Below are positions 33,667 through 37,206 of a stretch of 52,980 bases of DNA, one piece after another. Source of the stretch: Bacteroidales bacterium (GTDB lineage: Bacteria > Bacteroidota > Bacteroidia > Bacteroidales > VadinHA17); assembly GCA_025454795.1 (NCBI GenBank), contig JALONT010000021.1, positions 1 through 52,980 of the forward strand, read 5' to 3'. The translations under genes were made by a program, and so were the position numbers. The notes under the pieces were generated by a model, which saw nothing but the letters and a program-made list of their open reading frames with translations, did not search any database and was not told where the DNA came from. The number at the start of each line of letters is the position of its first letter. Positions within the stretch are counted from its first letter, which is position 1.

Positions 33667-34986
33667 ATGAAAAAGAATGCCATCATTACAGTTACTGTCA
33701 TCTGTGTTGCAATAGCAGCCCTGATAATATTCAGTAAACTGACTTCCAGGAAAACGGTTCAAAATAATTTTGCTGAAGCAAGGAAAGGGATTTTTGAAAT
33801 TACAGTGGCAAATGCAGGAGAGCTTGTTGCAGAGAGATCAATCGATATTAAAGGACCTGAGCTTGGACAAAGATCTGATCGTGGAGGTGGAAGGCAAGGT
33901 GGAGATTCCCGTGGTGGTCGTGGCAATGATATGCGTTTTATGGATTTCAAAATTCAGGATATAGTGCCGGAAGGAACTGTTGTTAAAGAAGGCGATTATA
34001 TAGCACAGCTTGACAAAACAAATTATGATAACACCTTAAAAGATGAGCTTGAAAGCCTGAAAACACAACAAGCCAGTCTTGAGATGAAAATACTGGATAC
34101 GGCAGTTGTCCTTACCAATCTCAGAGATGAAATAAAAAATCAAAGGTACCAGGTTGAAGAAGCTGTTATCAATCTTGAACAGTCAAAATATGAACCTCCT
34201 GCGACAATTCGGCAGGCCGAAACAAATCTGAACAGACAACAGCGGGCTCTTGAACAGAATATCAAAAATTATGAACTGATAAGAGCTAAAACCTTTGCCG
34301 AGATAAACCATGAGAAAATGCATCTTGACAGACAGGAACGGCTGGTATCTGATTTACAGGAATTCCTTGCAAAATTTACTGTAATAGCTCCTTCCCCCGG
34401 TATGGTTATTTATAAAAAAGACAGGAACGGGAACAAAAGAAAAATTGGATCATCCGTTAACCCTTTCGACCGGATTATCGCAACCCTTCCTGATCTTTCA
34501 ACAATGATCTCCAAAGTTTATGTTAACGAAATAGAAGTCAGCAAAGTAATGCCCGGCCAGAAAGTCATTGTTACTATTGATGCTTTCCCTCAGAAATCAT
34601 ATACCGGGAATGTGATCAGTGTCGGTAATATAGGTGAACAGCTGCCAAACTCCGATGCCAAAATGTTTGAAGTGCAAATCCGGATCGATGGTTCGGACCA
34701 GGATCTCAGACCCGCAATGACAACCTGGAATAAGATTATCCTCAAGACTATTGCTGATGCTGTTTATATACCCCTTGAATGTGTTCAGGCAGGGGCGGAC
34801 AGTATCCCTTTTGTTTATAAAAAGAATAAAACAAAACAGATTGTGGAGCTTGGTGAACAGGATGAAAAAAACGTTATCGTTAAACGGGGACTTGAGCCAG
34901 GAGCTAATATTTTTATTATTCCGCCGGAAGATCATGAGAATTTCAGGCTGGTAGGAGAAAATCTGATACCCGGTAAAAAAGAATGA
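33667..34986 (+). CDS. HlyD-family periplasmic adaptor with a Gly/Arg-rich insert
   Basis: 439 residues. One N-terminal membrane span (8-23) is followed by the lipoyl/barrel half, a long coiled-coil hairpin (about 120-240), and the return half with DLSTMISKVYVNEIEVSKVMPGQ. Such adaptors link an inner-membrane MacB-type ABC or RND pump to an outer-membrane channel. An unusual low-complexity insert of Gly, Arg and Asp (residues about 75-92, with RGGGRQGGDSRGGRG) breaks the first lipoyl segment. The expected transporter genes do not follow: the next gene is tRNA-Val. The adaptor is therefore an orphan or lost its partners. Confidence 0.88.
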   Translation: MKKNAIITVTVICVAIAALIIFSKLTSRKTVQNNFAEARKGIFEITVANAGELVAERSIDIKGPELGQRSDRGGGRQGGDSRGGRGNDMRFMDFKIQDIVPEGTVVKEGDYIAQLDKTNYDNTLKDELESLKTQQASLEMKILDTAVVLTNLRDEIKNQRYQVEEAVINLEQSKYEPPATIRQAETNLNRQQRALEQNIKNYELIRAKTFAEINHEKMHLDRQERLVSDLQEFLAKFTVIAPSPGMVIYKKDRNGNKRKIGSSVNPFDRIIATLPDLSTMISKVYVNEIEVSKVMPGQKVIVTIDAFPQKSYTGNVISVGNIGEQLPNSDAKMFEVQIRIDGSDQDLRPAMTTWNKIILKTIADAVYIPLECVQAGADSIPFVYKKNKTKQIVELGEQDEKNVIVKRGLEPGANIFIIPPEDHENFRLVGENLIPGKKE

Positions 34987-35084: not shown

Positions 35085-35159
35085 GGGACGTTAGCTCAGT
35101 TGGTTCAGAGCGCTTGCTTGACAGGCAAGAGGTCACTGGTTCGATTCCAGTACGCCCCA
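35085..35159 (+). tRNA. tRNA-Val (anticodon GAC)
   Basis: 75 bases folding as a tRNA: acceptor GGGACGT/ACGCCCC, D-arm GCTC...GAGC, anticodon stem CTTGC/GCAAG around loop TTGACAG (anticodon GAC at 35119-35121), 5-base variable loop, T-arm ACTGG/CCAGT with loop TTCGATT, discriminator A. The CCA end is not encoded. The acceptor stem has one A4-C69 mismatch. A GIY-YIG gene begins 31 bases downstream, and a broken copy of most of this tRNA lies at 35440-35549 with the same 3' end. Confidence 0.93.
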
Positions 35160-35190
35160 CGGGTTTTTCGCTGTATAAAAGTAACCAGGC

Positions 35191-35436
35191 ATGTTTTATG
35201 TTTATGCTTTGTATTCCAATGAATACAAAAAAATCTATATTGGATTCACTTCTGATTTAGAAAAAAGATTGTTTTCTCATAACCATGGTTTAAAAAAAGG
35301 TTATACATCTAAATTTCGACCCTGGACAGTAGTTTATTCAGAAGAATTCAGCGACAAGCAGTCTGCTTTGAGGAGGGAGAGACAGCTGAAAACAGCTCAG
35401 GGACGCGAATTTATCAAATCATTGCTTCGGATTTAA
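35191..35436 (+). CDS. Small GIY-YIG nuclease-domain protein
   Basis: 81 residues, essentially one GIY-YIG domain. Seen: FYVYALYSNEYKKIYIGFT (the GIY...YIG strands), R26 in LEKRLFSHN, GYTSKFRPW, and E63 in ALRRERQLK, positions equivalent to the catalytic Arg and Glu. The family covers homing endonucleases and small stand-alone YhbQ-like proteins; Bacteroidota carry many of the latter, often near tRNA genes. The gene lies 31 bp after an intact tRNA-Val and four bases before a broken copy of the same tRNA, so it looks like the cargo of a tiny tRNA-associated insertion. It is probably co-transcribed with the tRNA. Confidence 0.88.
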   Translation: MFYVYALYSNEYKKIYIGFTSDLEKRLFSHNHGLKKGYTSKFRPWTVVYSEEFSDKQSALRRERQLKTAQGREFIKSLLRI

Positions 35437-35439
35437 AAC

Positions 35440-35549
35440 CAGTTGGTTCAGTCCGCCAGCCGGCGGATGACAGGCACTCGTCCGCCCATTGGCGGAAGAG
35501 GTCACTGGTGAGTTTATCCGCCTTCCGGCGGAATTCCAGTACGCCCCAC
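35440..35549 (+). pseudogene. Broken tRNA-Val copy interrupted by three 16-bp hairpins
   Basis: Four blocks match the intact tRNA in order: CAGTTGGTTCAG (35440-35451), GACAGGCA (35469-35476), AGAGGTCACTGGT (35497-35509) and ATTCCAGTACGCCCCAC (35533-35549). The 5' acceptor strand and the rest of the anticodon stem are missing. At each junction sits a perfect 6-bp-stem palindrome of form TCCGCC-N4-GGCGGA (35452-35467, 35481-35496, 35517-35532). The copy cannot make a functional tRNA. Confidence 0.85.
35452..35532. repeat. Three TCCGCC-N4-GGCGGA palindromes
   Basis: The loops differ (AGCC, CATT, TTCC) while the 6-bp stems are identical, which argues for selection or for a shared mobile origin. 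Units lie at 35452-35467, 35481-35496 and 35517-35532. I saw no other copy in the window; all three interrupt one tRNA remnant. Confidence 0.85.
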
Positions 35550-36149: not shown

Positions 36150-36536
36150 GTGGGTAAAATTTGACTATAAATGTTTGCCCATTTTTATAAACGTTTAAAT
36201 CAACAAAGAATACCAAGATTCCATAATAAAATTATGAAATATAAATCAATTAACATAAATTTGATTTGCTGTCTTAAACGTTTATAAATAAGGATATTGT
36301 CCTTTATGAACTCTGATGCAAAAGCCGGCAGTTTTGACCACTTCTGGCCGGCCAGTCAACAATATTAGTATCTATCAATATATCAGAGATTTCACCCCGG
36401 CGCTGATGATCAAAAGAATCCAGCTGAAAGTGGCCAGGGTCACCGGCTTTCCCAACGGAGGCAGTACCTGCAAAAACCGTGACAACTTTGCCAGCCGTAG
36501 CTTTAGCGAAGGCTGGACAAATGAGCATTGTCCGTG
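36150..36536. other. 387-bp gene-free gap holding repeat remnants
   Basis: No credible gene. It contains copy A of an 87-bp repeat (36316-36402), then a short stretch with AGTGGCCAGGGTCACCGG and a palindrome CCAGCC-N14-GGCTGG (36491-36516). Frames at 36304-36528 (minus) and 36316-36540 (plus) run through these repeats; the minus frame encodes AFAKATAGK, a common artefact of such palindromes. The AT-rich part upstream (36150-36300) is probably the promoter region of the coiled-coil protein gene. Confidence 0.6.
36316..36402. repeat. 87-bp repeat, copy A
   Basis: Aligns without gaps to 38864-38950, with 69 of 87 identical positions by hand count and a fully conserved core GACCACTTCT. Both copies have the same orientation and bracket the toxin-antitoxin pair and the FISUMP gene. 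Words such as GACCACT and GGCCAGT recall the multiple terminal repeats of IS21-family elements, so an old insertion-sequence end is one explanation. Confidence 0.75.
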
Positions 36537-36956
36537 TTAGCTGCTGACCGTTTTTAAATAATCAACAGGAGTCATTACAGGGATTTCCGAGTTTTTATAA
36601 TCTTTTGTGTTTCTTGTTATCAAGACGTCAATTTTTTTATAGTCAAGGGCGCAATTATATTGAATACTATCCTCGAAGTCCTTAAATCCTGATGCGATTG
36701 CATTATTTATAGTTTGTTGGTCAACTTTTAAGATTGTCAGCAATCTTGAAATGCTATCTAGTTTGGTAATTACCTTGTTATGAGACTCAACCTTTCTGAG
36801 TACATAATATAAGTTACTGAAAGTTAAGGATGAAACATATCCTTTTATCTTCTTTTGTTCAATCAATGTAAATATGATTGCAGCTTCTCTGGAATGAGGT
36901 TTCCTGTCGATCAGAAAGTCAATAATAATGTCTGTGTCGATGAATAAGACAGCCAT
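36537..36956 (-). CDS. PIN-domain toxin (VapC-like)
   Basis: 139 residues. PIN-domain layout: LFIDTDIIIDFLIDRKP with D7, FEDSIQY with D96, and ITRNTKDY with D119, acidic residues that bind Mg and cut RNA. It follows the DUF6364 gene by one base, the classic toxin-antitoxin arrangement, so the predicted role is an RNase toxin held by the upstream antitoxin. Which RNA is cut cannot be told. Both genes lie between two 87-bp direct repeats, in keeping with horizontal movement. Confidence 0.9.
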   Translation of the reverse strand: MAVLFIDTDIIIDFLIDRKPHSREAAIIFTLIEQKKIKGYVSSLTFSNLYYVLRKVESHNKVITKLDSISRLLTILKVDQQTINNAIASGFKDFEDSIQYNCALDYKKIDVLITRNTKDYKNSEIPVMTPVDYLKTVSS

Positions 36957-36957
36957 G

Positions 36958-37206
36958 TTAGAGGTACTTTTTTATTAATGCGTTACCAAGTTCCTTTTTA
37001 TAGTCAAAATCAGCAGGTAATGCAACACTACCGAGTAATGATTTTACCCTGGGTGTGTATTCAGTATCCTCAATAGGAGTATTTTTAGTCAGGAGCATCA
37101 GGTAGTTTTCTACGAGGTCTGAAAGGCTTCTTCCTTTGTTTTTTGCATAGACTTTAGCCCTGCGAGCTACGTCCGTATTTATACTTAATGTTAATTTTGC
37201 GTCCAT
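36958..37206 (-). CDS. DUF6364 antitoxin of the PIN-domain pair
   Basis: 82 residues. The N-terminus KLTLSINTDVARRAKVYAKNKGRSLSDLVENYL is a ribbon-helix-helix-like DNA-binding segment with one strand and two helices. The C-terminal part (PADFDYKKELGNALIKKYL) should wrap the toxin. Such antitoxins neutralise the PIN RNase and repress their own operon. Two TACGTA palindromes, at 37209-37214 and 37233-37238, flank a TATATTTG -7 box just upstream and are the likely operator. Confidence 0.88.
   Translation of the reverse strand: MDAKLTLSINTDVARRAKVYAKNKGRSLSDLVENYLMLLTKNTPIEDTEYTPRVKSLLGSVALPADFDYKKELGNALIKKYL

Follow-up and report, generated by a model that had tools for sequence, protein, structure and literature searches.

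A one-gene GIY-YIG nuclease unit associated with split tRNA genes in Bacteroidota: a probable homing-type cassette

The window analyzed here, a 52,980-nucleotide stretch of DNA from a Bacteroidales bacterium, contains an intact tRNA-Val(GAC) gene, a gene encoding a small GIY-YIG nuclease and a displaced, hairpin-scarred copy of the same tRNA. In related genomes, we observed genes of this nuclease family in association with tRNA genes and on a common strand with them, together with polarized remnants of the same tRNA, nuclease-free sites, tandem arrays and conserved active-site residues. We consider it fairly probable that the locus represents a minimal homing-type cassette formed around a free-standing small GIY-YIG nuclease, with a tRNA gene as its target, where both the cleavage and the mobility are inferred. 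The arrangement is widespread and apparently undescribed.

The tRNA-Val locus of the window and its nuclease

The following features were assigned in the window.

33667–34986, plus strand: HlyD-type gene, a flanking marker also present at L128 and L134, which lack the nuclease
35085–35160, plus strand: intact tRNA-Val(GAC) gene (ARAGORN; Rfam RF00005, 66.4 bits, 35085–35159)
35161–35190, plus strand: spacer between tRNA and nuclease gene, containing TCGCTG
35191–35436, plus strand: gene for the 81-aa GIY-YIG nuclease (PF01541, E 1.4e-19)
about 35440–35549, plus strand: displaced hairpin-scarred tRNA-Val copy, nt 13–76 (gapped local alignment)
35452–35467, no strand: palindrome 1, TCCGCCAGCCGGCGGA, replacing approximately tRNA nt 25–34 (by eye)
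35481–35496, no strand: palindrome 2, within the displaced copy
35517–35532, no strand: palindrome 3, within the displaced copy

The order of intact tRNA-Val, GIY-YIG gene and tRNA-Val copy, proposed by a sequence-only reading of this DNA, was confirmed by ARAGORN, Rfam, PF01541 and the alignment score, and no other of the 30 loci typed, from the 37 tRNA loci in this genome, is a Val(GAC). The spacing of 31 bp between tRNA and nuclease gene holds for the tRNA end given by Rfam and not for that of ARAGORN (30 bp), and the copy begins three bases past the nuclease stop codon rather than four, as had been stated. By eye, TCGCTG occupies the same spacer position in several other Val(GAC) cassettes.

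The displaced copy aligned with tRNA-Val at a gapped local score of 38.8, while shuffles of the region (n = 2000) reached 21.2 at most, which rules out a chance tRNA likeness of the region downstream of the nuclease gene. The best other tRNA from the 30 loci scored 15.5. The copy had been described as running from the D-loop to the 3′ end; it does span nt 13–76, but it is also interrupted by three perfect TCCGCC(N4)GGCGGA palindromes and not only truncated. As the same reading held, the unit is a lone gene without an integrase, since the window has no room for a further gene between tRNA, nuclease and remnant.

The protein meets the requirements for GIY-YIG superfamily membership (PF01541, 70.6 bits against a cut-off of 22.6). 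Residues Y16, G18, R26, H30, N31, E63 and K67 were invariant in a 12-row alignment, and we take Y16, G18, R26, H30 and E63 to be catalytic. The whole 81-aa protein corresponds to the catalytic domain, with no DNA-binding module beyond it. The closest solved sequences were the UPF0213 protein BH0048 (E 7.4e-12) and then Slx1 (E 3e-5), with I-TevI weaker; a fold search with the AlphaFold model (pLDDT 95) gave the same order, UPF0213 before Slx1, and only its match to UPF0213 fell below E 0.001 (solved structures of UPF0213 or Slx1 type: PDB 1zg2, 1ywl, 6seh and 7cq2). Although UPF0213 and Slx1 nucleases are thus closest in sequence and fold, no link of those proteins to a tRNA cassette was found in this analysis. 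Slx1 works with Slx4 on branched DNA. In the accessible part of one source, it is described as a structure-selective nuclease of a family that includes E. coli YhbQ (PMC7017083). We infer that a nuclease recognizing DNA structure could dispense with a DNA-binding module of its own and still attack many tRNA genes. With regard to a possible phage origin of the nuclease, a tblastn search against phages returned 17 records, mostly Rhizobium and Listeria phages, all below 60% identity.

Farther along the window, a PIN-domain gene preceded by a small gene (36537–37206, minus strand) is likely a toxin–antitoxin pair, and an ORF at 36304–36528 presumably represents a translated palindromic repeat, judging by its motif.

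Distribution beside tRNA genes, far-side remnants and nuclease-free sites

A search of 60 related genomes with the window protein gave 115 hits in 41 genomes, from which 93 (E up to 1.7e-6) were examined and the 22 weaker ones omitted. An ARAGORN tRNA lay within 300 bp of 41/93 genes and within 100 bp of 31/93, and 43 of the 44 tRNA neighbours within 300 bp were on the strand of the GIY-YIG gene. The chance expectation is 0.6–1% per gene, assuming 40 tRNAs in 3.5 Mb, and a control with PIN genes from the same 60-genome draw placed 0/29 within 300 bp of a tRNA. The neighbouring tRNAs included many isotypes, and the suggestion to look for the same GIY-YIG family beside other tRNA genes was answered by a strong enrichment. 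It should be noted that 30/93 genes lay within 400 bp of a contig end. A sister GIY-YIG clade of 28 rows had no same-strand tRNA within 300 bp.

Profile searches extended the association to the phylum: 27/29 best-per-genome loci lay within 100 bp of a same-strand tRNA, and 52/66 named loci had a tRNA at most 300 bp away, with 52/52 on the same strand and four of these loci overlapping or lying between units. Since most of the proteins behind the profiles A1 and A2 are tRNA-adjacent, these rates, like the phylum hits and arrays given below, describe that clade and not all GIY-YIG genes; the 93-gene set, obtained with the window protein, is less biased. The locus sets overlap (L268 = G002:C337, L271 = G015:C272 and L277 = G081:C44, among others). 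In the phylum sample, 104/296 genomes had a hit at E up to 1e-20. The named hosts were mostly Bacteroidota, along with Chlorobiota, Cloacimonadota, a few Patescibacteria and one Kuenenia bin; the genomes are mostly draft assemblies, many of them metagenome bins, and binning errors may affect the named taxa.

A protein tree of the 93 genes was built on 83 columns and left many forks unresolved. On this tree, the isotype of the adjacent tRNA changed 16 times over 39 labelled rows, against a shuffled mean of 26.6 and a minimum of 23 (n = 200). The clustering was unchanged with one row per genome and isotype, and on all 21 labels, including the unlabelled group, 30 changes were counted against a shuffled mean of 41.5. 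Clusters were formed by Lys, Arg(CCT)-downstream and Val(GAC) (5 rows), but not by the two-row groups Met, Asn and Pro(TGG)-upstream. The clustering is therefore uneven, and it could also reflect plain inheritance.

Of 42 tRNA-neighboured GIY-YIG genes, 36 had a further, broken copy of that tRNA within 1 kb. Because tRNAs resemble each other, controls with other isotypes reached up to 9/15 at one locus in this test. When the piece was sought across the nuclease gene within 400 bp, it was present in 26/35 evaluable pairs, compared with 27/422 trials with other isotypes, and absent in the remaining 9/35; the wider sets gave 20/27 and 31/43. For the polarity of the far-side pieces, 267 GIY-YIG items from all sets were pooled, 99 of which had a piece at z ≥ 5. 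These items are not independent, as the sets overlap, and the number having a neighbouring tRNA is not given. Where the nuclease gene lies downstream of the intact tRNA (class U), 63/77 pieces reach the tRNA 3′ end (14/77 fall short of it) and 7 begin at the 5′ end; where it lies upstream (class D), 22/22 begin at the 5′ end and one reaches the 3′ end. The exact break point within the tRNA varies. Such polarity would be expected if the nuclease gene sat within a tRNA gene of which one half had been made up to a whole tRNA.

The far-side pieces usually carry a G+C-rich hairpin. Perfect stems of this type, 6 bp or longer, were present in 23/28 far-side remnants of the 93-gene set, in 16/560 same-locus windows and in 25/560 shuffles; for stems of at least 7 bp, the counts were 11/28, 0/560 and 4/560, respectively. 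A few of these stems, e.g., in G033, are probably terminators, and no such stem was found in remnant G027:C426. The position of palindrome 1 recurs in Val(GAC) copies of several relatives and species. The TCCGCC(N4)GGCGGA palindrome itself is dispersed, with 49 sites in the genome of the window (G000, 3.29 Mb), where a reversed-pattern control gave 0, and 489 in the 58 genus genomes searched (0 to 58 per genome). Its count correlated with the number of GIY-YIG genes over the 58 genomes (Spearman 0.44, p 6e-4; per Mb 0.35, p 0.008), without correction for kinship, and genome size also correlated with palindromes (0.30). That the nuclease is required to maintain the palindromes was not supported: genome G023 has 14 of them and no GIY-YIG hit.

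The genome of the window carries two further GIY-YIG genes. For the second (36% identical), the match ends 18 bp before an intact tRNA-Pro(TGG), and on its other side lies a broken 5′ piece of tRNA-Pro(TGG), which is palindrome-split too. The third (L003, G000:C22), which belongs to the 28-row sister clade, has no tRNA; copies of another repeat, of about 95 bp (at about 1171–1265 and 1901–1994), were seen by eye on both flanks, and TCCGCC..GGCGGA palindromes adjoin them. A broken copy of the same tRNA was found nearby at 9/30 tRNA loci read (of 37) in this genome, and two of the nine hold a GIY-YIG gene. Most of the copies inspected sit directly 5′ of the intact gene; they bear hairpins, and several end at the T-loop GTTC (by eye). 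At L034, L042, L048 and L049 of the same genome, broken tRNA copies show, by eye, double hairpins around a GAGGATCCTC-like centre in the D-loop.

Occupied and empty alleles of one site, which the sequence-only reading had proposed to seek in relatives, were found both for the window (against L128, one flank) and for G081 (contig C44 against L138, both flanks). At L128 (G035), tRNA-Val comes after the HlyD neighbour of the window (67.6% DNA identity), and neither a broken copy nor a GIY-YIG gene is present. The same HlyD gene at L134 (G011) precedes a palindrome-bearing broken copy, with 37 bp identical to window positions 35440–35476, and an intact tRNA-Val, again without the nuclease. Both loci have only the HlyD flank in common with the window. 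For G081:C44 and L138 (G081:C94), both flanks are colinear (82% and 85%), and 594 bp, comprising two broken copies, the intact tRNA and the GIY-YIG gene, replace 51 bp of L138. Homology resumes at nt 9 of the native tRNA and continues some 650 bp beyond; as it runs from the tRNA into the flank, the displaced piece is the native one. L138 and G081:C44 belong to the same bin and so may be two strains or two loci. L139 (G029) has the same flanks, with a palindrome-bearing remnant before the tRNA.

Among 44 Val(GAC) loci, taken from best hits, chosen regions and GIY-YIG hits and therefore not a random draw, the nuclease is patchy (8/44). A broken copy accompanied 7/8 loci with the nuclease and 6/36 without it (Fisher p 3e-4); remnants at L127 and L139, seen by eye, fell below the threshold and were scored as loci without a broken copy. 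The genus has two tRNA-Val(GAC) types, GGGACGT.. and GGGTTGT.. (L007, L166/L214, L198–L216). In G013 and G001, which are occupied or formerly occupied, the type of the intact tRNA differs from that of the remnants, which on sequence grounds suggests a putative allele replacement; in G013, the entire intact tRNA differs, not just one half. At L200 (G066:C88), a short stretch after tRNA-Val resembles, by eye, a decayed GIY-YIG start that tblastn did not detect.

Tandem arrays of 2–5 units with a fixed period of about 295–450 bp were also found, including in single-contig genomes. In 18/20 arrays, selected for being tandem, a same-strand tRNA (Asp, Ser, Leu, Arg, Met, Val, Ala or Pro) lay within 70 bp; of the other two, one is at a contig start, and the other (L265, in a single-contig genome) had no tRNA in the 2 kb read. 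In the nine arrays inspected, each unit consists, by eye, only of the nuclease gene and a hairpin-bearing tRNA fragment. In the named strain Pedobacter psychrophilus (L274), two units accompany tRNA-Met, and a palindrome of this kind is present there too.

Proposed mechanism and alternative explanations

Based on the above results, among them the excess of broken copies at Val(GAC) loci with the nuclease and the isotype clustering on the protein tree, and on the SegB and mORF precedents discussed below, we suggest the following pathway for the cassette, in which the cutting of the tRNA gene, its copying by recombination and the part played by the hairpins are inferred. The nuclease would cut an uninterrupted tRNA gene, and repair by recombination from a cassette-bearing copy would place the nuclease gene and a spare tRNA half inside it. 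From the spare half and the native half that remains, a single intact tRNA, possibly a hybrid, would result, and the second native half would be stranded beyond the nuclease gene. Depending on the orientation, the product would be either intact tRNA, nuclease and displaced 3′ half (class U, as in the window) or displaced 5′ half, nuclease and intact tRNA (class D). Tandem arrays may arise by repeated insertion at the same site or by recombination, and the displaced halves may acquire hairpins that wreck them. The hybrid origin of the intact tRNA was judged by eye, and only in G081. The initial suggestion of an element that enters at a tRNA gene and restores it is supported by the nuclease-free sites and by the enrichment beside tRNAs, and the hairpin scars have to be added to it. 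Its alternative, an ancestral tRNA/GIY-YIG/tRNA tandem that lost one tRNA, fits less well because the far-side remnants are markedly polarized and the G081 remnant lies within the native flank.

Several observations count against a homing cassette. Since the protein has no DNA-binding module, the choice of target is unexplained. The intact tRNA-Val genes of G000 and G033 are 100% identical to those of G034, G074, G065 and G006, whose Val(GAC) loci have no nuclease, so that a target within the tRNA would remain open to cleavage. Loci without the nuclease can have broken copies as well: such copies were found at 7/28 tRNA loci of the window's genome that lack a GIY-YIG gene and in G004, where they lie beside tRNA-Val(TAC) and no GIY-YIG hit was obtained. 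Further points against are the wholly different intact tRNA of G013, the 9/35 pairs without a far-side piece, the 14/77 class U pieces that stop short of the 3′ end, the common bin of L138 and G081:C44 and the uneven isotype clustering.

A bolder version, which we regard as unlikely but worth stating, is that a bare Slx1-like GIY-YIG protein reads hairpin or cloverleaf DNA and not a sequence, splits and rebuilds essential tRNA genes in both orientations and for almost every isotype, and spreads the dispersed TCC..GGA palindromes as non-autonomous passengers, which would make it a distinct class of minimal mobile element of bacterial chromosomes. On this view, broken tRNA copies with no nuclease gene would represent relatives of the element that lack it.

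The broken copies at the 7/28 nuclease-free loci speak for ordinary tandem duplication by slippage or recombination, with decay of the spare tRNA and the small GIY-YIG gene as a trapped passenger. Tandem broken copies without a GIY-YIG gene were also seen, and arrays can expand by recombination between repeats. However, duplication alone does not account for one gene family enriched beside tRNAs in many genera and nearly always on the same strand, for the polarity of the remnants, for the lack of same-strand tRNAs within 300 bp in the 28-row sister clade, or for the PIN control (0/29), and we find this explanation doubtful.

It is considerably harder to maintain that the nuclease has been domesticated to serve tRNA gene dosage, repair or regulation, with the hairpin copies as regulatory parts and not scars. 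The recurrence of hairpins in displaced copies (23/28 against 16/560 same-locus windows) and their constant position within the Val(GAC) copies from several species would agree with such a role, but the nuclease occurs at only 8 of the 44 non-randomly drawn Val(GAC) loci, the copy in G033 has two stop codons, and relatives have nuclease-free sites. A remnant of an integrase-type genomic island using the tRNA as attachment site can practically be rejected: a tRNA with a displaced 3′ piece is presumably the usual island footprint, but the loci read hold one-gene units of a few hundred bp that leave 5′ as well as 3′ pieces (class D), unlike 3′-end integration as we understand it, and neither the window nor the inspected arrays, which hold the nuclease unit only, have room for an additional gene, such as an integrase, between tRNA, nuclease and remnant.

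Relation to known elements

The cassette proposed here fits best as a variant of the homing-endonuclease elements, like which it would work, and its membership rests on the inferred cleavage. Group I introns with GIY-YIG endonucleases occur in tRNA anticodon loops, and the present arrangement resembles them in having a nuclease gene within a tRNA gene near the anticodon. Unlike in those, no intron was seen here; the split tRNA is dead, and the intact one stands apart from it as a complete copy.

The closest phage counterpart is SegB, a free-standing GIY-YIG homing endonuclease of phages T4 and T6 (PMC13096335, PMC2988022, both available in part). In T6, SegB amplifies a tRNA together with its own gene, which the accessible text ascribes to recombination between the tRNA 5′ region and the segB 3′ region (PMC13096335). 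Judging by the same excerpts, the likeness covers a free-standing GIY-YIG protein, a location beside tRNA genes of many isotypes and tandem arrays of tRNA segment plus nuclease gene (PMC13096335). SegB-type repeats are indeed present here, but the repeated tRNA is partial in the bacterial arrays inspected and, as far as the available text goes, full-length in T6. Further, SegB is a phage protein, and the survey took in phage and archaeal-virus proteins (PMC13096335, in the portion at hand); the window protein is the catalytic domain only; and the available portions of the SegB sources describe neither hairpin-scarred tRNA halves nor a split chromosomal tRNA gene. The arrays represent a natural chromosomal parallel to the nuclease-driven tRNA amplification in phage T6. 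Through this parallel, whether a homing nuclease sets tRNA gene dosage becomes a testable question, e.g., in Pedobacter psychrophilus.

A second parallel is provided by the mORFs of fungal mitochondria, reported for Allomyces atp6 and Glomus atp6, atp9, cox2 and nad3, where the Glomus atp9 case is GIY-YIG (PMC3630166, available in part). As there, an endonuclease gene in the target gene would supply a replacement end, and the native end would be pushed beyond it. A displacement of this type would agree with the polarity over 99 far-side loci and with the G081 piece in the native flank; the hybrid origin of the completed tRNA would rest on inspection by eye in G081 alone. In contrast, the mORFs hit mitochondrial protein genes and not bacterial tRNA genes, and in the accessible part of that paper only the carboxy-terminal end is replaced, while the cassette occurs in both orientations, and no hairpin scars or tandem arrays are described (PMC3630166).

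Among the open-access papers listed in our searches, judged by title and start of abstract, we found no account of chromosomal GIY-YIG genes inside tRNA genes; subscription papers and preprints lay outside this coverage. Large islands are known to settle at tRNA genes. In the present case, a unit with a single gene seems to reside within tRNA genes and to rewrite them; if so, tRNA gene evolution would partly be a by-product of selfish nucleases. The cassette may also explain contig breaks at such loci and GIY-YIG frames running into tRNAs. At the C24 gene of the window's genome (L002), the reading frame continues 13 codons beyond the match into the next tRNA gene, and such an overrun is a source of odd annotated C-termini.
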